From assembly GCA_013289585.1 (NCBI GenBank), contig JABCZR010000028.1, forward strand, positions 1 through 49,723: 49,723 nucleotides of DNA, in the 5' to 3' direction. The notes beneath the pieces were generated by a model. It made no database searches. It saw only the letters and a list, made by a program, of their open reading frames with translations, and was not told where the DNA came from. The DNA is from Acidobacteriota bacterium (GTDB taxonomy: Bacteria > Acidobacteriota > Terriglobia > Acidiferrales > UBA7541). The stretch's first letter is position 1. Each line of letters begins with the position of its first letter. Position numbers and translations under genes: made by a program. Positions 1-7,599 of this stretch are shown here, in pieces.

Positions 1-2
1 AT

Positions 3-140
3 CGCCGTCCTCCTAAACGTTGGCGAGGCCTAGCTCGCGCTCGCCCGCCGAAACGTTATAGATATAAACAATATGACCTCCAATATGACTTCCTTGGAGG
101 CCGCGATGAGACCCGAACTGAACTAAACGACAGCTTCTGA
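3..140 (+). CDS. possible 3' end of a gene cut by the window edge
   Basis: The third reading frame is open from the first base of the window to a TGA at 138-140. It would encode about 45 residues, strongly basic in the first half (RRPPKRWRG...) and ending in ETRTELNDSF. It has the same orientation as the element genes that follow and ends 30 bp before the next start. It could be the tail of an upstream mobile-element protein, but a chance open frame of this length is quite possible and no family is recognisable. Confidence 0.22.
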   Translation, partial: RRPPKRWRGLARARPPKRYRYKQYDLQYDFLGGRDETRTELNDSF

Positions 141-170
141 GCGGCTATTGGAACTCCGAGGAGGATTATC

Positions 171-1163
171 GTGTCTCGTGGCTTTGACAGCTTCGAAATT
201 GACGACCTTCGCAGCTCTGATTTTGGGTCCGAGCGCGATGTAAATCGCGGTTCGTCCTCCGTATGGAACACCCAGCACAATCTCCACAACATTCACCGTG
301 AGGAAGACCGCGCCGACAGACTTGACCGCGAGGAGCGCGAGCGTTCCGAGAATGAGCGTCCGCCGCTGGCCCGGGAAGAACGAATCGAAACGATTCTTTC
401 GCAGCGTATCCGAACATCGTACATCGACAGGGGCAAGAATTATTCGCTGCGTGATTCCGAGATCCATACGCTAGCTGAGGTCGGCAAATTCCGAGTAGTG
501 GCAGCTCGCGATTTGGCCCAGTTCGCCTACAACGGCGACCGTTCCCGCATGGAGAACGATGTCGAAAACCTAGTGAGGCATGGGCTCATGCGGCAGACCG
601 GCATCGCTGACATTGACCACACCCCGATTCAGGCTCTGACGCTCACGAAGGAAGGTCACAAGCTCCTGTCTCGCGGTAAAGTCGTTTCTCCAAGCCAAGC
701 CATCTACCACGGACTGAAGAAACCCAAGGAAGCTTTCCACGACACGGACCTCTACCGGCTCTATCACAAGGTCAGCGAAGAGATCGAGGGCCGCGGGGGC
801 AGAGTCCTACGAGTCCAACTCGATTACGAAATGAAACAGGAGCTGTATGCTCGCCTTGCCCGCGCATCCCAAGACAAGAGCCGAGCACCAGAGAGGCAAA
901 GGAGAGAAGTCGCCGAGCGGTATCACCTCAAAGTTGTCTCCGGCAAGATTCCGATTCCCGATCTGCGGATTGAGTATGCGAACGAGAACGAAAACCAGAT
1001 TCACTGGCGCGACGTTGAGCTTGCAACCGACCACTACCGCCCAAGCGGACTTTCCCAGAAGGCTCGCGCAGGCTTTCAGATTTATGCCCGTCACGGCGAA
1101 ACTGGCCGGCTTCGCCGTATCCGCGACGAGCGGGAGTTGAGTGCAGTTATCCTCGGCTTCTAG
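171..1163 (+). CDS. replication-relaxation-like winged-helix protein of an integrative element
   Basis: This 330-residue protein starts at a GTG with a strong ribosome site (GAGGAGGA) 5-12 bases upstream. Residues 1-80 are disordered-looking and very rich in Arg and Glu. Residues about 90-160 look like a winged helix-turn-helix (LAEVGKFRVVAARDLAQF, then VENLVRHGLM). The C-terminal part contains PIPDLRIEY at 251-259 followed by a DVELATDHYR segment, the pattern of the replication-relaxation family (PF13814) found next to plasmid and integrative-element replication or mobilisation genes. It is followed after 3 bp by a second winged-helix protein and further on by an integrase, so a role in element replication, transfer or its control is inferred. 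The family assignment is from pattern memory, not a search. Confidence 0.6.
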   Translation: MSRGFDSFEIDDLRSSDFGSERDVNRGSSSVWNTQHNLHNIHREEDRADRLDREERERSENERPPLAREERIETILSQRIRTSYIDRGKNYSLRDSEIHTLAEVGKFRVVAARDLAQFAYNGDRSRMENDVENLVRHGLMRQTGIADIDHTPIQALTLTKEGHKLLSRGKVVSPSQAIYHGLKKPKEAFHDTDLYRLYHKVSEEIEGRGGRVLRVQLDYEMKQELYARLARASQDKSRAPERQRREVAERYHLKVVSGKIPIPDLRIEYANENENQIHWRDVELATDHYRPSGLSQKARAGFQIYARHGETGRLRRIRDERELSAVILGF

Positions 1164-1166
1164 TCT

Positions 1167-2243
1167 ATGAACTTCCGAGAAGACCAAATCGCTAACCTCC
1201 GCAACTTCGGTTATACCGAGGTAGAAGCCCGGTTTCTCTACCTTGTGGCAACACATTCGGGTTATTTCACGGTGCGACAGTTTCTCGACTTTGCCAACGC
1301 CAAGAGCGGCAAGCGCAATGCCCGTCTCGTCGAGAAGCTGTTCGGCCTGGGTCATGCTAGCGCCCAAAGATACAGACGGAGGAGTCTTGTCTATCATCTG
1401 TGCTCGCGCCAAGTCTTCGCCGCTATCGGCAAAGACCACTTGCGCAATCGACGGCACCACGAACTCCGCCACATTAAATCTCGGCTCTTGGCGTTGGATT
1501 ACATCCTTACTCACCCGGAGGACGATTATTTTGAGACCGCGGAAGCAAAGCGCCGTTACTTTGTCCAAACATTCAAAGTCAACGAGACTGTGTTCTCCCC
1601 GTCCGTGGACCACGGCAACGGCATCACTTTCGCCGAAGGATTTCCGCTGTGCGTTGCCCCTTCTTCTCCCGATCACCTGCCTGTGGTCACCTTCACCTAC
1701 GTTGACGCCGAGCACCGAGACCTCGATCCGTACATCGCCTATTTGCGCGCCTACCGCCCACTGTTCCGGCAACTTCCGAGCTTCCAATTCCTCTACATTT
1801 CAACGGCTGCGAGCCTGCAGAAGGAGGCTGCCGAGATCTTTTCGTTACTCGTGGAAGGTAAGGGCCTCATGGATTTAAAACGTTACTTCGATCTGGAAAC
1901 AAAGTGGGACCGCGAACAGTACGGGCTCGTAACCGAGCAGGACGCGATCTTTTTGAGCGAAGCGAGGAAGCGTTACACCGGAAGGAGTATCGACACTCTC
2001 TACTATCTCTGGAAACGAAATCAACTGCCAAAGGACTTACAGATTGAGGTAGCACAAACATCCATTGCCACGCAGAAGATCCTCTTCCGAACCATCACGT
2101 TGAGGGGACAGGAAGCAATTTTTGGGGATAGCACAAAGAACTGGGGTGACGGCTGGCAGATTCGAGGATGTTCACGGGCAGCATCACCTCGCAGGTCACT
2201 TTTAGAACCAACCCAAGGTCTTCAGAAACCGGCAGATGCGTGA
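1167..2243 (+). CDS. second winged-helix protein of the element, function unknown
   Basis: The 358-residue product begins 3 bp after the preceding stop codon, so the two genes are surely cotranscribed. The N-terminal ~90 residues (FGYTEVEARFLYLVATHSGYF, then VRQFLDFAN and LVYHLCSRQVFAAIG) have the look of a winged helix-turn-helix, again resembling the N-terminus of replication-relaxation type proteins. The rest is a mixed alpha/beta region without a motif I recognise. No transmembrane segment or signal peptide is visible. The tandem arrangement suggests the two proteins act together, perhaps as a hetero-oligomer on element DNA; that is inference. The C-terminus (RAASPRRSLLEPTQGLQK) looks low in structure and may have been extended or altered next to the palindrome that follows. 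Confidence 0.5.
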   Translation: MNFREDQIANLRNFGYTEVEARFLYLVATHSGYFTVRQFLDFANAKSGKRNARLVEKLFGLGHASAQRYRRRSLVYHLCSRQVFAAIGKDHLRNRRHHELRHIKSRLLALDYILTHPEDDYFETAEAKRRYFVQTFKVNETVFSPSVDHGNGITFAEGFPLCVAPSSPDHLPVVTFTYVDAEHRDLDPYIAYLRAYRPLFRQLPSFQFLYISTAASLQKEAAEIFSLLVEGKGLMDLKRYFDLETKWDREQYGLVTEQDAIFLSEARKRYTGRSIDTLYYLWKRNQLPKDLQIEVAQTSIATQKILFRTITLRGQEAIFGDSTKNWGDGWQIRGCSRAASPRRSLLEPTQGLQKPADA

Positions 2244-2261
2244 AGAACGGAGGTGACATAT

Positions 2262-2386
2262 GCACGCGGCCAAAACACTAGGATGGGCGGGAGCGACCCC
2301 ACTTTTGGGGGCTTTCAGCCGCCCAAAACTTCGTGGGATCGCTCCCGCCGCCCCGAGCAGCTCGGGGCCGTGTTTTGGCCGCGCGC
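2262..2386. repeat. 120-bp nested inverted repeat (cruciform or structured RNA)
   Basis: An outer perfect 14-bp stem joins CGCGGCCAAAACAC (2265-2278) to its complement at 2370-2383. Inside it, 2286-2302 pairs with 2333-2349 with one mismatch in 17. The apex 2303-2309 (TTTTGGG) pairs with 2322-2328, and GGC 2310-2312 with GCC 2318-2320. A side hairpin, CCCCGAG (2351-2357) with CTCGGGG (2361-2367) around a CAG loop, fills the right flank. The whole can fold as a three-way junction in DNA or RNA. It lies between the second winged-helix gene and the small RHH-like gene, outside both. Confidence 0.9.
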
Positions 2387-2455
2387 AGGAATCGGAACAT
2401 ACCGTTTGTAATGCGCGATGTAATGCATCACGAAGCACGAAAGGAGAACCAACTC

Positions 2456-2704
2456 GTGGCAATTCTGAAAGCACCATCGAAGCAACCCAAAACTACAACC
2501 CTTCAGGTCCGCCTAGAGGAAGAAGTCAGGCACAAACTGGACAGATACGCCGAGTTCATCGACGCGAATGCTTCTTACGTTGTGAGCGAGGCACTCAAGC
2601 TCCTGTTTAGGAAGGATGAAGAGTTCAAACGCTGGCTAGGCCAACACGCCAACAATCACAAACAAGAACAAATCCAAGGAGACGCTCTTACAAAGACTGC
2701 GTAG
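2456..2704 (+). CDS. small ribbon-helix-helix-like DNA-binding protein
   Basis: The GTG at 2456 is chosen because AAAGGAGAA (2440-2448) stands 7 bases before it; an upstream extension of the frame runs into the palindrome and is not expected to be translated. The 82-residue product has the arrangement of a ribbon-helix-helix protein: a strand TTTLQVRLEEEV near residues 13-24, helix HKLDRYAEFID, turn, and helix YVVSEALKLLF. Proteins of this type act as dimeric repressors, antitoxins or accessory factors of relaxases and integrases. No toxin partner is adjacent; the next gene is an excisionase-type HTH protein. A role in relaxosome or element control is therefore more likely than an antitoxin, but this is inference. 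Confidence 0.65.
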   Translation: MAILKAPSKQPKTTTLQVRLEEEVRHKLDRYAEFIDANASYVVSEALKLLFRKDEEFKRWLGQHANNHKQEQIQGDALTKTA

Positions 2705-2709
2705 CAAAC

Positions 2710-3114
2710 ATGAATCGTCGTTTAACCCAATTCGATGTGCGCGAGAATACAGCGTCGTCAAGACGGCATGCCTCGCGCCTTGCAGTTGCCAGCCACGTGA
2801 AGCCCTTTGGCATCGAAGAAGAGACCGCGCAGAGGGCGAGATCCCCATTCCCGGACGATGCTTCAGCGAAGAATATCTCGGACCTCATGCATGCCGAGTC
2901 ACAGCCTGCGGTCACAGTGGATGAGACACGAGGCGAAAGAAATCTTCTGACCGTTCATGAGGTAGCAGACTTGTTGCAGGTTCCTGCTTCATGGGTGTAC
3001 GAGCGAACCAGGAGGCAAGGACCTGAGCAACTGCCTCACTTCAAGATCGGCAAATACCTCCGATTCGAACAACGCGCGTTATTGGATTTTATTCGGAGGC
3101 AGCGTTGTGCTTGA
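2710..3114 (+). CDS. excisionase-type helix-turn-helix protein (HTH_17/AlpA-like)
   Basis: This protein has 134 residues if the ATG at 2710, 5 bp after the previous stop, is used; the first ~75 residues are polar and may be disordered, and no strong ribosome site is visible. Residues ~78-134 are a typical MerR-like 'helix-turn-helix 17' domain: LLTVHEVADLLQVPASWVYE, then HFKIGKYLRFEQRALLDFI with a C-terminal tip of basic residues. Small domains of this kind, beside tyrosine integrases, bind the attachment site and favour excision or repress the integrase promoter. The stop codon overlaps the integrase GTG by 8 bases, so expression of the two is probably translationally coupled. Confidence 0.75.
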   Translation: MNRRLTQFDVRENTASSRRHASRLAVASHVKPFGIEEETAQRARSPFPDDASAKNISDLMHAESQPAVTVDETRGERNLLTVHEVADLLQVPASWVYERTRRQGPEQLPHFKIGKYLRFEQRALLDFIRRQRCA

Positions 3115-4387
3115 TTCCGCGAAACACGTGCGTATGATGTCGATAGGTATTGCAGAGCCAAGACGAACTTCGGGGGAAAGAGATACACCGATGATTCGTC
3201 ACCGATACCAATCCGGAAGTTTAGTAGTTCGAGGAAAGCGAAAGAAAGTCTGGGTTGCTCGTTGGAGGGAACCTGTGCTCGCGCCTGATGGGACTCTGAA
3301 AAGCATTCGACGTTCAGAGATCATTGGCACGCTCGCGGACTTCCCCACAAGACGCCAGGCACGCGCTCTGCTCGAATCCCGCCTGCATGATGTCAATCAC
3401 ACGCTTCAAAAACCGCAATCGTCAATGCAGTTCCGCGAATTTGTCTGCTCACAGTGGGAGCCCGCCATCCTGCCCACACTGAAGTTTGCTACGCAACGTA
3501 ACTACCGGCACCTCATACGACGCCACTTGTTTCCAATCTTTGGTGATCAACCCATGTGTGATATCAAACGCCAACACATACAGGGGTTTGTCATGGAAAA
3601 GATGGTTCGCCAGGGGTTTTCCTGGAAAACGTCCCTTCATCTCCGCAACCTGGTGAGCAAAATATTCACCACGGCTGTGGACTGGGAGTATGTGCCAGCG
3701 AACCCTGCACGTGGCGTAAAACTTCCTCAGAGGCCAGTTCGCCAACCACTCCGATTCCTTACAGTCGGCGAGGTAAAGCGCTTATTGGAAGCTCTTAGGG
3801 AGCCGGAAAGGACGTTGGTGCTAACAGCCGTTCTGACTGGAATGCGGATCGGAGAGCTACTCGCGCTGCGCTGGAGAAATGTGGACCTCGAACGCAAGGT
3901 CATCCGCGTTCGTGAGGCCGTTTATGAAGGCCACAACTCGACACCAAAAACGCAGGGCAGCATCCGTGACATTCCTCTGGGACCGGCGCTCGAACAAGCA
4001 CTTCGCCTGCATGGTGCGCGCAGCCGAATTTCAGATGATTCACTCCTCTTCCCCAGTCGCAACGGAAGCTATCTGCGACCCGGAAATCTGCACAAGCGCT
4101 ATTTGCATCCCGCATGCGCGAAAGCAGAACTCCGGCGTTTCAGTTGGCACGATTTCCGTCGAACGCACGCGACGTTGCTCAGTGACATGGGCGAACCGTT
4201 GAAGACGGCGCAAGCTCAACTCGGCCATGCCAGCCTCAGCACGACAGCAGAACTCTACGCGCAGGCAGTCCCTGCTTCGCAGAGAGCCGCTGTAGAAAGG
4301 CTCGAAAAGGCTGTGGGCTTCTTAGTGGACCCAAATGGACCCAAAATCGAGGGGGTTATTCAACCGGGGAGTTTGCTAATTCAATGA
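3107..4387 (+). CDS. int: tyrosine recombinase / integrase
   Basis: This 426-residue site-specific recombinase contains all catalytic residues: Arg247 (TGMRIGELL), Lys281 (beta-hairpin lysine), His348 and Arg351 (WHDFRRTH), His374 (LGHASLSTT) and the nucleophile Tyr384 (AELYAQ). Residues ~30-100 resemble an arm-binding domain (RYQSGSLVVRGKRKKVWVAR), and ~105-205 the core-binding helical domain. The GTG start at 3107 is supported by GGAGG at 3095-3099; an internal ATG at 3191 would give a start typical of the family. The gene ends 17 bp from the 3' end of tRNA-Arg, the standard arrangement of an integrase with its attachment site. It appears intact, so the element may still be mobile. Confidence 0.95.
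   Translation: MLDSAKHVRMMSIGIAEPRRTSGERDTPMIRHRYQSGSLVVRGKRKKVWVARWREPVLAPDGTLKSIRRSEIIGTLADFPTRRQARALLESRLHDVNHTLQKPQSSMQFREFVCSQWEPAILPTLKFATQRNYRHLIRRHLFPIFGDQPMCDIKRQHIQGFVMEKMVRQGFSWKTSLHLRNLVSKIFTTAVDWEYVPANPARGVKLPQRPVRQPLRFLTVGEVKRLLEALREPERTLVLTAVLTGMRIGELLALRWRNVDLERKVIRVREAVYEGHNSTPKTQGSIRDIPLGPALEQALRLHGARSRISDDSLLFPSRNGSYLRPGNLHKRYLHPACAKAELRRFSWHDFRRTHATLLSDMGEPLKTAQAQLGHASLSTTAELYAQAVPASQRAAVERLEKAVGFLVDPNGPKIEGVIQPGSLLIQ
4326..4345 (+). repeat. tandem 10-bp direct repeat at the end of int
   Basis: TGGACCCAAA occurs twice without a gap, inside the last codons of the integrase and 60-80 bp from the tRNA-Arg 3' end. Short direct repeats near an attachment site can be arm-type integrase or excisionase sites; here this is only a possibility. 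Confidence 0.4.
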
Positions 4388-4404
4388 AGGGCAAACTATT
4401 TAAG

Positions 4405-4425
4405 TGGTGCGCCCGGGGGGACTCG
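4405..4425. other. probable attachment site of the integrative element
   Basis: The CCA end and acceptor/T-arm side of tRNA-Arg faces the integrase stop codon across 17 bp. Integrases of this class usually recombine within the 3' half of a tRNA gene and restore it from the element. No second copy of the sequence is visible in the window, so the other boundary must lie to the left of position 1 and the exact crossover core cannot be defined. Confidence 0.45.
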
Positions 4426-4481
4426 AACTCCCGACCTTCTGGTTCGTAGCCAGACGCTCTATCCAACTGAGCTACGGGCGC
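4405..4481 (-). tRNA. tRNA-Arg (anticodon ACG), CCA encoded
   Basis: The complement folds as a complete cloverleaf: acceptor GCGCCCG with CGGGCGC, D-arm GCTCAGTTGGATAGAGC, anticodon stem CTGGC/GAACCAG-type arm with loop CTACGAA (anticodon ACG), variable AAGGTC and T-arm with GTTCGAGTC. CCA is encoded at 4407-4405. The ACG anticodon is the wobble-modified arginine tRNA whose A34 is the substrate of TadA, itself encoded at 19932-20381. Confidence 0.96.
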
Positions 4482-4544
4482 ACTGTAAATAAATATTAGC
4501 ACAAGGCATCACGCTCTCGCCACGCGATCTCGATCAAACCTCTT

Positions 4545-5795
4545 TCAACTTTTCGTCGGATTGCTCCTGCCGAATTCCGCGCGATGCGCTTCCGGACCAA
4601 AATAAATCACCACTGCTCCCACCAGCAGCACGACCGCGGCAAAAAGTCCCATCGCCCGCCCATAACTCATAAGATGAGACATGCGCGCCTCAAAGTAGGC
4701 GCTCCCTGACGCAATCAGCACCCCGAATTGATACGCCAGTCCCGGAAAGAATCCGCGCAATTGGTCGGGCGAAAGCTCATTGATGTGCGCCGGTATCACC
4801 CCCCACGCGCCCTGCACCATGAACTGCATCAGAAATCCGCCAACCAGAATCAGCGGCAAATTGGGCGCAAACACCCACAAAGGGATCATCGCAATCCCCA
4901 GCAGCACGGCCGTAACCATCGCCCGCCGTCGCCCGCTGCGGTCGGAAAAATATCCGAACGCCAGTCCTCCGCAAATCGCTCCGACCATCGAAAACGCCGT
5001 GAAGTCCGACGTCCGCTGCGGGCTGAATCCATGCTGCTGTTGCAAATAGGTAGGGTACATATCCTGCGTGCCGTGCGAGATAAAATTCACCATCGCCAGC
5101 AAAACCACGAGATACGCGAAGCGCTTCCAATTGCGGAAAATGGCTTGCCTGTACGTGGTCCAATCGGTGCGCGAGCGGTGCCAGGCTTCAGGTTCTTTCA
5201 CTTTGGCCCGCACGAACAGAGTCAGCAGCGCAGGTAACCCGCCGATGAAGAATAGTGGCCGCCAGCCCCAATGTGGGTAAACGAGACGATAGACGCCCGC
5301 GGCCAGCAGAAATCCAAGCGCGTACCCTTCCTGCAAGAAACCCGAAACGAGCCCCCGCCACCGCGCGGGAACGGATTCCATCGCCAGCGAAGCCCCCACG
5401 CCCCACTCACCGCCCATTCCGACCCCGTAAAGCAGTCGCAAGAAAAAGAAAACTTTATAGCTCGGCGCAAGCCCGGAGAGAACTTCAATCAGCGAGAAGT
5501 ACAAAATATTGACGATCAGCGGAGTGCGCCGTCCATACCGGTCAGCAAATAATCCAAACAAAATCGCGCCGATCCATCGCGTCGCCAGGCTCGCGGTGAT
5601 CGTTAACGCCAGCGCGGGGATGCTGGTGCCAAATTCCTTGGCAATGGGAGCCAACACAAATGTGAGGATGAAAAAATCGAACGCGTCGAAGGTCCACCCA
5701 AGAAATCCCGCGAGGACCGCGTGAAATTGTCCTTTGCTGCCGGATGTGGGGGAGTTACTCGCCGTTGTTTCCACTTTAGTCCGTGCGCCACTCAT
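4545..5795 (-). CDS. MFS permease of the SHS type (lactate/sialic acid/glycolate-like carboxylate transporter)
   Basis: The 416-residue product has 12 predicted membrane helices with the MFS signature between helices 2 and 3 (LFGLFADRYGRRTPL) and its repeat in the second half (FGYFSDRSGRRRAM). The start of helix 1 (GWTFDAFDFFILTF) and VGMGGEWGVGASLAMESVP are characteristic of the sialate:H+ symporter (SHS) group, which includes NanT and the Jen1-type lactate permeases. It therefore probably imports a monocarboxylate or similar acid by proton symport at the inner membrane. Its start overlaps the end of the sodium symporter gene by 20 bp, so translation is coupled. Substrate cannot be read from the sequence; linkage to an N-acyl-amino-acid deacylase suggests an organic acid or acyl amino acid. 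Confidence 0.85.
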   Translation of the reverse strand: MSGARTKVETTASNSPTSGSKGQFHAVLAGFLGWTFDAFDFFILTFVLAPIAKEFGTSIPALALTITASLATRWIGAILFGLFADRYGRRTPLIVNILYFSLIEVLSGLAPSYKVFFFLRLLYGVGMGGEWGVGASLAMESVPARWRGLVSGFLQEGYALGFLLAAGVYRLVYPHWGWRPLFFIGGLPALLTLFVRAKVKEPEAWHRSRTDWTTYRQAIFRNWKRFAYLVVLLAMVNFISHGTQDMYPTYLQQQHGFSPQRTSDFTAFSMVGAICGGLAFGYFSDRSGRRRAMVTAVLLGIAMIPLWVFAPNLPLILVGGFLMQFMVQGAWGVIPAHINELSPDQLRGFFPGLAYQFGVLIASGSAYFEARMSHLMSYGRAMGLFAAVVLLVGAVVIYFGPEAHRAEFGRSNPTKS

Positions 5796-7599
5796 TCGGC
5801 TTGGGCATGGATCGCGAGATCGCGATAGCGCTCACTACCGCCACCGCGCCAAAAATTCCGCCAGTAGAATATCGCCCGAAGCACAACGCTCCGATGCAGG
5901 CCAGCATGGAGTAAACCATCACGCAGCCCAGCAGCCAGCTCAGCAGATTCCTCCCGAGATCACGCGTGACGGTTTCATCCCCGGCAATTTTCGCTACCGG
6001 CTTCCAACCCGTGATCTGCGGCCGGACTTTCTTGTAAAACCGCACCAGCGTGTCGCCGTGTTCCGGCGCCGTCAGCATCGTGACCGAGAGCCACACCAGC
6101 GTTGTCACTCCCGTTGTGCAGAGTGTGGTCTTCGCAAAAATCACCGGGTCTGAACCGCTGAAGGGCTGCGGCCTTCCCGCGATCGCCATCCACAACGCAC
6201 TCGAATGCAGCGCCAGCGTCGTCACCAGCGCCGCCACCATCGCGGAGATTTCGCTCCACGCATTCACCCGCCACCAATACCAGCGCAGCAAGTAAACGCC
6301 GCCGGTGCCTGCTCCCAACTCCAGCACAATCTTCCAGCCTTCCGAAACAGACGTAAGATTCCACGCGACTACCGCGGCAGCCACGCACAGAAACGCCGTC
6401 GCCAGCCGCGAGGCGTTCACGTAATGCACTTCGCTTGCATTTTTCTTCAGGAAGCGCCGGTAGAAATCCTCCACCAGGTACGAGCTGCCCCAATTGAGCT
6501 GCGTGGCAATCGTGGACATGAACGCCGCCATGAATCCAGCGAGCAAAATCCCGAGAACCGCATGCGGTGTATTTCGCGTCGCAACCATCATGTACCCGCG
6601 CTCTGGCTGCGCCAATCCCGGATAGAGCACAACCGCCGCCAGCGCCGTCAGGATCCACGGCCATGGCCGGAGCGCGTAGTGCGCCAGGTTAAACCACAGC
6701 ACCGACAACAGTCCGTTTCTCTCATCTTTCGCGCTGAAAATTCTTTGCGCGATGTATCCTCCGCCGCCCGGCTCCGCCCCCGGATACCAGAAAGCCCACC
6801 ACTGCACCGTCAAATGAACGACAAACGTAATGACCGGCAGCGTCCACAGCGCCTCTCCGGTCCAGCCACGCGAAAAATCAGGAAGCATGGCGGTGATGTC
6901 GCTCGCTCCCGGCCCCGCCGCCGCGCGTTTTGCCGCGAGCGTTGCCAGCATCTGCTGCATTCCACCCGCCGCGTGGACGCCGTACCACGCCACGCCAATA
7001 ACAATCGCCATCTTCAGCACGAATTGAAACAGGTCCGTCCACAGCACGCCCCACAACCCGCCCAGCGAAACATAAATCCCCGTGAACGGCATCAGGAAGA
7101 AAACGCAAATCGCCAGCGCTTTCGCATCGCTCACCCCCAGCGATGTGCTGATGATATTCACCATGGCCTTGGTTACCCAGCCCAGAATCAGGCAGTTCAT
7201 CAGCAGCCCGAGATACACGGCGCGAAATCCTCGCAGGAACGCGGCGGGTTTGCCCGAGTACCGGAATTCCGCAAACTGCACATCGGTGATCAGGCCCGAA
7301 CGTCGCCACATTCGAGCGAACAAAAATACCGTCATCATCCCCGAAGGAAGAAAGCTCCACCACAACCAATTCCCCGCCACGCCTTGCGTGTAAACCAGGC
7401 CCGTCACCGCAAGCGGCGTGTCCGCGGCAAAGGTCGTCGCCACCATTGATGTTCCCGCCAGCCACCAGGAAACATTGCGGCCCGACACGAAATAATCTTC
7501 CGTGCTTTTCCCCGAGCGGCCACGGAAATAAAGACCCAGAAATAGCGTAATCAGCAGATAACCCACGATGGCAGCCCAGTCCGCAGCCGAGAGCGTCAA
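5776..7599 (-). CDS. sodium:solute symporter (SSS family)
   Basis: This integral membrane protein has about 13 or more helices. The N-terminal half shows family features: LFLGLYFRGRSGKSTEDYFVSG-type segment after helix 1 and a helix with GTSMVATTFAADTPLAVTG. I prefer the TTG at 7597-7599 as start, because GGGAAAGGA lies 7 bases before it and it places the protein directly at helix 1 (TLSAADWAAIVGYLL); a GTG at 7647 would add 16 residues. The symporter would use the sodium gradient to import a small solute. It sits 125 bp downstream of the deacylase gene and overlaps the MFS permease, making a hydrolase-plus-two-transporters unit. Substrate is unknown. Confidence 0.87.
   Translation of the reverse strand: MTLSAADWAAIVGYLLITLFLGLYFRGRSGKSTEDYFVSGRNVSWWLAGTSMVATTFAADTPLAVTGLVYTQGVAGNWLWWSFLPSGMMTVFLFARMWRRSGLITDVQFAEFRYSGKPAAFLRGFRAVYLGLLMNCLILGWVTKAMVNIISTSLGVSDAKALAICVFFLMPFTGIYVSLGGLWGVLWTDLFQFVLKMAIVIGVAWYGVHAAGGMQQMLATLAAKRAAAGPGASDITAMLPDFSRGWTGEALWTLPVITFVVHLTVQWWAFWYPGAEPGGGGYIAQRIFSAKDERNGLLSVLWFNLAHYALRPWPWILTALAAVVLYPGLAQPERGYMMVATRNTPHAVLGILLAGFMAAFMSTIATQLNWGSSYLVEDFYRRFLKKNASEVHYVNASRLATAFLCVAAAVVAWNLTSVSEGWKIVLELGAGTGGVYLLRWYWWRVNAWSEISAMVAALVTTLALHSSALWMAIAGRPQPFSGSDPVIFAKTTLCTTGVTTLVWLSVTMLTAPEHGDTLVRFYKKVRPQITGWKPVAKIAGDETVTRDLGRNLLSWLLGCVMVYSMLACIGALCFGRYSTGGIFGAVAVVSAIAISRSMPKPNEWRTD

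Follow-up and report, generated by a model that had tools for sequence, protein, structure and literature searches.

Near the start of the window (the whole stretch of DNA analysed here, 49,723 nucleotides), two genes that we call wh1 and wh2 are followed by a large palindrome, a small RHH-like gene and an integrase gene, and the series runs up to a tRNA-Arg gene. The features are as follows.

171–1163, + strand: wh1, coding for a MarR-like winged helix plus an alpha/beta domain
1167–2243, + strand: wh2, unannotated; weak winged-helix-like match at the N-terminus
2261–2278, + strand: outer stem, 5' arm, pairing with 2370–2387; covariation in relatives
2286–2302, + strand: inner stem, 5' arm, including the conserved core GGAGCGACCCC; covariation in relatives
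2303–2328, + strand: apical hairpin, TTTTGGG/CCCAAAA with inner GGCT/AGCC; 7-bp stem, 2303–2309 with 2322–2328
2329–2332, + strand: one-sided bulge between the apical hairpin and the inner 3' arm; longer in several relatives
2333–2349, + strand: inner stem, 3' arm, 17 nt with one mismatch against 2286–2302; covariation in relatives
2350–2368, + strand: side hairpin, 2350–2358 with 2360–2368; pairing kept and sequences varying among relatives
2370–2387, + strand: outer stem, 3' arm, 18 nt with one mismatch; the inner 14 bp are perfect
2407–2426, + strand: direct repeat TGTAATGC, two copies 12 bases apart, between the palindrome and the RHH gene
2456–2704, + strand: gene for an RHH-like small protein, GTG start; RHH by pattern and by a marginal profile match
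2710–3114, + strand: gene for an HTH_17 protein, putatively excisionase-like
3191–4387, + strand: tyrosine integrase gene
4402–4449, no strand assigned: 48-bp att repeat that overlaps the 3' portion of the tRNA-Arg gene
4405–4481, – strand: tRNA-Arg(acg), the integration target

The palindrome at 2261–2387, referred to below as the fold, is predicted to form a three-way junction from either strand. The first-pass annotation had described outer, inner and apex stems and a side hairpin packed into 125 bp, and its coordinates are off by no more than one base; the side hairpin, which it gave as a perfect 7 bp, is slightly longer (9 nt complementary, 8 bp folded). The site does lie, as described there, between two element genes and ahead of the RHH-like one, that is, between ORFs 1167–2243 and 2456–2704. 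The absence of a T tail was likewise correctly noted: no T run occurs in the sequence 3' of 2387, so the fold lacks the hallmark of an intrinsic terminator. Folding z scores are –8.2 (+ strand) and –11.8 (– strand) with RNA parameters and –10.4 and –11.6 with DNA parameters, with none of 200 shuffles as good on either strand in either case. Among the 14 inverted repeats of the 49.7-kb window (arms of at least 14 nt, at most 200 apart), the outer and inner arms of the fold rank second and third. The direct repeat TGTAATGC downstream, judging from its sequence and placement, is a possible operator. Similar direct repeats downstream of the fold were seen by eye at L051 and L052.

The 48-bp repeat over tRNA-Arg recurs on contig C22 (7400–7353, minus strand), which identifies C22 as the other end of the element. 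The assembled parts total ∼11.8 kb, and the stretch that would join contigs C22 and C28 is missing from the assembly. The element thus has an integrase and a tRNA att repeat at both ends, the make-up of an integrative mobilizable element. No VirB or VirD4 relatives were found by tblastn in the C22 and C28 parts, and the missing middle may still hold T4SS genes. The element at tRNA-Arg to which the window copy of the fold belongs is either a smaller one or one that is not fully assembled. The C22 portion (L196, positions 1–7400) contains Rhs-like ORFs, recognized by eye, and a second tyrosine recombinase ORF (6209–5232); the contig breaks there.

Counting copies in the host genome and in related elements had been proposed in the first-pass annotation. 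In its own genome, the fold occurs at two places, each inside an element, even when matches with E values up to 10 are considered. The second copy (C12) has the same plan with a changed sequence; it is located between a wh2 relative and an RHH gene, after which come a VirD4-like gene and an integrase gene at tRNA-Met. A DNA search gave fold matches in 33 of 151 genomes, the host included. We then surveyed 89 genomes of the host family with a covariance model built from 25 copies. The fold was found in 38 of these genomes, at 78 places (counted after dropping, in each case, the weaker of two overlapping matches on opposite strands), and wh2 was found in 33. Both were present in 28 genomes, wh2 only in 5, the fold only in 10 and neither in 46 (Fisher p 4e-10). 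At 40 of the 78 places, the fold follows wh2 in the same orientation at a distance of no more than 700 bases; there is no place at which the two are in opposite orientation within 1500 bases of each other. The other 38 have no adjacent wh2 match, and residence in a mobilizable element is established for some of them only.

Beyond the host family, 9 of 396 genomes in a phylum-wide sample gave a match, the host again included. In three genomes from other classes (L082, L083 and L084), the fold once more sits beside a wh2 relative. Four genomes of one family (G172, G196, G438 and G462) contain palindromes without these genes, at eight places in G196, and no such gene is near the fold matches at L078 and at L087 in G332. 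The palindromes of G196, G172 and G462 (L170–L180) share the GGGAGCGACCCC core and have no ICE genes around them. Those of G196 are present in many copies, in both orientations and with shared flanks; when these multi-copy palindromes were checked as elements, no integrase-bounded units were found, and an integrase is near some copies. Searches of phage and plasmid collections returned no DNA match to the fold, and the plasmid collection gave no wh2 match and only distant coupling-protein matches.

Two further arrangements were seen among the copies. Tandem pairs of different folds, ∼0.4–1 kb apart, occur at L051 (5 and 973), L061 (1077 and 1746), L072 (8371 and 8805) and L073 (232 and 1184), and might reflect the stacking of elements or the capture of a second site. 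In a short-core variant (L054, L063, L065, L066, L068 and L075), the 5'-arm motif CCCACTT is mostly unpaired in the predicted folds yet conserved; on these models, it may mark a recognized single-stranded stretch.

The relatives L037/L131 carry a larger element with a T4SS. Its genes run through VirB2, VirB3, VirB4, VirB9, VirB10, a protein in the VirB5 place (with a weak match only), VirB6, VirB8 and a small protein without a family, and continue with wh1, wh2, the fold, RHH, VirD4, VirB11, a RepB primase and an integrase. Gene order in the named loci is largely the same. Relatives of this type have the T4SS with VirB4, the coupling protein and the integrase that define an ICE, and among their scanned proteins none was assigned to a relaxase family. 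The fold has the neighbours expected of an oriT, lying beside candidate DNA-processing genes and a coupling-protein gene, between wh2 and RHH-VirD4. Searching whole genomes for two relaxase families, PF03432 and PF08751, in the 12 genomes with fold-bearing VirD4 elements, we found the former in one, the latter in four and neither in eight, and in no case is the match on the contig that carries the element. Elsewhere in some of these genomes, a frame of ∼926 aa contains a TrwC-type (MOBF) relaxase domain: at G000:C20:10645-11514, in G031, in G034 and, with six matches, in G035. No convincing direct repeat marking att sites of the full ICEs was detected in eight loci or in wider stretches of three genomes, the one hit being a 13-base chance match at L120. 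At L040, two VirD4-bearing elements (8083 and 19415) on one contig face each other with a tRNA-Pro gene between them.

A pattern-based scan for wh1 across 84,980 species genomes yielded 42 loci, the titles of which name Acidobacteria or groups that we take to be Acidobacteriota. Both wh2 and VirD4 are present at 28 of the 42. The first-pass annotation had held that homologous elements keeping the genes while losing the pairing would speak against its reading. Pairing is kept in 25 of these 28 loci; genes without pairing occur in the other three and in two loci found later, and in all five the RHH gene is missing too, either wholly or in its central part. Recognition of the fold in the named loci was by core motif (up to two mismatches), inverted repeat or model. 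Most of the 25 have the exact core motif and some have one or two mismatches; L113 is counted through its twin L053, the fold of L136 is degenerate, and distant members are missed by the family model at E 1e-5. The same 25 loci carry an RHH-like gene, 24 by BLAST and L136 by eye. Of 30 loci with VirD4, 25 have the fold together with RHH and 5 have neither in undamaged form, a count that is biased because L228 and L233 came from a targeted search; the unbiased figures are 25 and 3 of 28. An integrase was recognized in 10 of the 25 fold-bearing loci versus 0 of the 5 fold-less ones, a difference that is not significant, and several contigs end early.

The five T4SS loci with wh1/wh2 but no fold are L112, L119, L121, L228 and L233. 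Fold and intact RHH are both missing from L112, L119 and L121, with a 50-residue RHH remnant left in L112. Four of the five share one short-gap arrangement and probably represent one subclade. At L228, L230 (=L119), L229 (=L121) and L233, wh1/wh2 run directly into VirD4 and no integrase was seen. Such loci may be non-mobile or use another site. In the family survey, 17 of 57 wh2 matches lacked an adjacent fold (57 of 60 rows were counted, three small fragments of genes already listed being omitted). We inspected eight of the 17. In five, VirD4 follows directly; twins of L112, L119 and L121 are among these, and four of the five loci belong to the fold-less set above or are twins of its members. 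Two lack RHH and fold, and in one, L234, the end of wh2 is gone along with the fold, whereas RHH remains. Several of the remaining nine are fragments or lie at contig ends.

To assess conservation of pairing, which the first-pass annotation had suggested examining with a covariance model, we aligned 25 copies and took the structure from their own RNAalifold consensus. Pairing is possible in 93.8% of cells, and 83 cells are changed on both sides. The covariation score is 0.254, compared to 0.098 for shuffled alignments (reached by 0 of 500) and at most 0.081 when the structure is slid along the alignment. Two other measures stand out less: 13 pairs are changed on both sides versus 10.6 shuffled (31 of 500 shuffles reach this), and further pair types number 30 versus 26.8 (25 of 500). 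The compensatory changes looked for are thus found, and the alignment indicates that pairing of the fold is maintained by them. The side hairpin was followed in 39 copies (truncated, divergent and opposite-strand matches left out). It has a perfect stem of at least 6 bp in 31 copies and of 3–5 bp in 8, and its arms comprise 17 distinct strings, which fall into about seven unrelated types. Copies of the family are characterized by the outer stem and the side hairpin; the distant loci examined retain the core-bearing inner hairpin.

Compensatory change is expected of structured RNA and equally of folded DNA. An excess of G.U over A.C on one strand is expected of RNA, and we therefore compared the alignment of 25 folds with RNase P from 30 of 35 same-lineage genomes having RNase P. 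With the strand-neutral consensus, the fold has 13 G.T and 16 A.C, versus 46 and 11 for RNase P (Fisher p 0.0012, only a guide because related sequences are not independent); the fold shows no such excess. With the gene-strand structure, the counts are 26 and 17 for the fold and 130 and 21 for RNase P. Of the two strands, the one opposite the genes gives a slightly more favourable consensus folding. An earlier count over inverted repeats (50 folds: 1951 Watson-Crick, 13 GT, 25 AC and 31 other) was dropped as evidence because the RNase P control was equally unbiased (9 GT, 10 AC), and the alignment-based count was used because fold and RNase P separate there. No Rfam family matched the fold at its cut-off, a permissive threshold giving sub-cut-off matches only. 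The mismatch symmetry, read against the RNase P control, favours DNA over RNA.

Some elements retain the fold in minimal surroundings. L048 is a 4.6-kb element bounded by 27-bp tRNA-Gly repeats (at 1340 and 5945) that contains an integrase, the fold, what by eye is a short remnant resembling an excisionase, and cargo ORFs, together with a toxin-antitoxin-like pair of the Gp49/HTH type; of all the ICE proteins, tblastn finds the integrase alone, with no wh1, wh2, RHH or T4SS gene. L074 is a 9.0-kb element bounded by 46-bp tRNA-Pro repeats (at 6782 and 15689), with an integrase, HTH, RHH, the fold, cargo and a Gp49/HTH-like pair. Neither has VirB or VirD4 relatives by tblastn. Thus, both keep the site while lacking transfer machinery, as mobilizable elements do with an oriT. 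A third case, L188, is a 5.6-kb stretch of a 45-kb contig from a viral collection that holds the fold, HTH_17 and an integrase; no phage structural gene was seen in this stretch, and its VirB11 tblastn match (E 0.008) is at chance level. No RHH gene was detected beside the fold in L048 or in the L188 stretch. Retention of the fold once the machinery is gone points to a function in cis that would be served by a helper. The Gp49/HTH pair lies at the far end of both small elements (L048, 5063–5787; L074, 14753–15501) and is perhaps a stabilizing module.

Sequence profiles (Pfam, NCBIfam and PDB) say little about the three proteins next to the fold: wh1 gives weak MarR/PadR hints, wh2 remains unnamed and the RHH-like protein gives only a PutA-RHH hint, a marginal match to the PutA RHH domain at E 0.022. 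The model of wh1 (pLDDT 80) contains a MarR-like winged helix at residues 80–176 (Z 12.6, rmsd 2.0, 79 aligned), and this part dominates the structure search. The model of wh2 (pLDDT 83) has a weak winged-helix match (Z 6.8, rmsd 3.0, 77 aligned). Coverage of both proteins by Foldseek and VIA-align is mainly by winged helices. In the C-terminal alpha/beta domain of wh1, P263, D264, E268, E283 and K297 do not vary across an alignment of 31 sequences, and the motif and strand order suggest that this domain is PD-(D/E)xK-like.

The reading that we consider probable is that the fold is a cis-acting DNA-processing site, an oriT or combined transfer/replication origin, of compact relaxase-less Acidobacteriota ICEs and of the mobilizable elements that hitch-hike on them. 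Behind it stand the gene order, the conservation, the covariation, the DNA-like mismatch symmetry, the retention in minimal elements and the co-occurrence of fold and RHH in VirD4 loci. It agrees with the 'origin of transfer or replication' that the first-pass annotation listed among its options. Of those options, this is the best fit: T4SS elements conserve the fold between wh2 and RHH, with compensatory changes, and a minimal element keeps it without these genes. Protein binding, extrusion, nicking, transfer and the identity of the cutting protein are inferred. Weighing against the reading are the five T4SS loci that have wh1/wh2 and no fold, the 17 of 57 wh2 matches and the 38 of 78 fold places at which the other partner is not adjacent, the failure to recognize a relaxase or to find att sites of a full ICE, and the similar-core palindrome that is dispersed in another lineage. 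Under this proposal, the integrase would excise the element, after which the RHH-like protein (probably also wh1/wh2) would bind the conserved GGAGCGACCCC inverted repeat. The DNA would be extruded or made single-stranded, allowing the three-way hairpin to form; the folded DNA would be recognized and one strand cut; VirD4 would deliver that strand to the VirB channel; and the RepB-type primase would start the second strand in the recipient. A more specific version, which we regard as speculative and on balance unlikely, is that wh1 (winged helix, PD-(D/E)xK-like, with D264, E283 and K297) and wh2 together form a new relaxase or cruciform-cutting initiator, neither HUH nor recombinase, acting at the extruded three-way junction. 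If true, the relaxosome would be unlike any described and would account for part of the 'MOBless' T4SS.

Other functions for the fold have to be weighed against transfer. It could instead be a single-strand initiation or replication origin for the RepB-type primase (ssiA-like), or a rolling-circle or single-strand origin used after transfer. A RepB_primase protein is encoded in L037 and has relatives by BLAST at many of the named loci, ssiA is a hairpin flanked by single strands that is recognized by RepB' (PMC4434180), and a cis-acting folded single strand would also suit the minimal elements. However, ssiA, at ∼40 nt with one hairpin, is far simpler than the fold, and while many fold-bearing loci have the primase gene, so do L119, L121 and L228, which have neither fold nor RHH; the fold thus seems to track RHH rather than the primase, and we think such an origin rather improbable. 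A structured RNA, either a leader of the downstream operon or a trans-acting element RNA, seems quite improbable. Its orientation is constant wherever wh2 is adjacent, it lies upstream of RHH or of HTH-integrase, it combines high stability with compensatory changes, and in the gene-strand structure G.T exceeds A.C; but the strand-neutral counts set it apart from RNase P, Rfam offers no family at its cut-off, and the anti-gene strand gives the slightly better consensus. The idea of a structured leader of the RHH gene, raised in the first-pass annotation, is weakened further by the folds of L048 and L188, which have no detected RHH gene.

The position upstream of RHH-VirD4 or HTH-integrase, the conserved GGAGCGACCCC arms and the co-occurrence with RHH in VirD4-bearing loci would also suit an operator through which RHH or wh1/wh2 controls a transfer/excision operon, with a helper controlling hitch-hikers in trans; yet an operator needs neither a three-way junction nor a side hairpin that keeps its pairing as its sequence changes, and we give this a slim chance. 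Slimmer still is that of a dispersed palindromic repeat (REP or MITE-like) sitting in elements by chance. The GGGAGCGACCCC-core palindromes of G196, G172 and G462, which are multi-copy or lack ICE genes and in G196 have both orientations and shared flanks, are what such a repeat would look like. The host genome, by contrast, has two places, each in an element, in place of many scattered copies, and placement relative to wh2 is fixed at 40 of 78 family places. Hence, the mobile palindromic repeat suggested in the first-pass annotation does not describe the host family, although it does describe a similar-core palindrome dispersed in another lineage. Folded single-strand recombination sites are known in attC and in the attP of CTX phage, and the fold shares with them a hairpin with a one-sided bulge. 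In all three elements for which both repeats were found (the window element, L048 and L074), however, tRNA att repeats lie elsewhere, making a recombination site barely credible.

The proposed transfer origin can be set beside known systems. The closest published parallel is the oriT of SGI1 with mpsA/mpsB, a 125-bp GC-rich region of inverted repeats that adjoins two atypical mobilization genes; three inverted repeats are named in it, two of which matter for transfer and one of which does not (PMC6414798). The analogy extends to size, to the inverted-repeat site, to the two atypical genes and to the setting in an integrative mobilizable element. MpsA is tyrosine-recombinase-like (PMC6414798), whereas wh1 is winged-helix-like, and the fold, unlike the SGI1 oriT as described there, has covariation, a three-way junction and a T4SS-bearing family in another phylum, and is a putative transfer site. 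The pCW3 oriT is bound by a winged-helix protein, TcpK, that is needed for efficient transfer (PMC6137059), and wh1/wh2 are also winged-helix-like; TcpK binds tandem boxes of nine nucleotides, whereas our system has a large folded palindrome and two longer proteins, which may or may not be related to TcpK. The iOriT elements (PMC11389934) are small, integrative and without transfer genes, with one DNA site in common with the helper, as in the satellites described here; the difference is that the helper family of the fold has no recognized relaxase and that the function of the fold is inferred. RSF1010 ssiA/ssiB with RepB' (PMC4434180) also pair folded single-strand hairpin DNA with a RepB-type primase, as found in the fold elements, but with one hairpin of ∼40 nt, against 125 nt for the fold; the primase is moreover retained in three loci that lack the fold.

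A search of the literature on Acidobacteria ICEs, MOBless T4SS, unusual relaxases and folded oriTs, at the level of titles and abstract openings and with few subscription journals or preprints, gave no description of the fold site, wh1 or wh2. In 2011, T4SS clusters without a nearby relaxase came as a surprise, and unknown relaxases, protein secretion and decay were the candidates; the authors favoured secretion or decay, and in their view most MOBless T4SS were something other than ICEs (PMC3158045). The fold elements likewise have a T4SS cluster without a recognizable relaxase, and they differ in having an integrase, a coupling protein, a primase, a DNA site and mobilizable relatives. The fold family offers a compact MOBless test case: its T4SS comes with a coupling protein, a primase and an integrase, its DNA site is defined and folded, and one of its satellites has only this site and an integrase in common with the ICEs. 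If the site works as we propose, its motif could be used to look for hitch-hiking elements across a major soil phylum, and it would give access to what may be a new way of starting conjugation.
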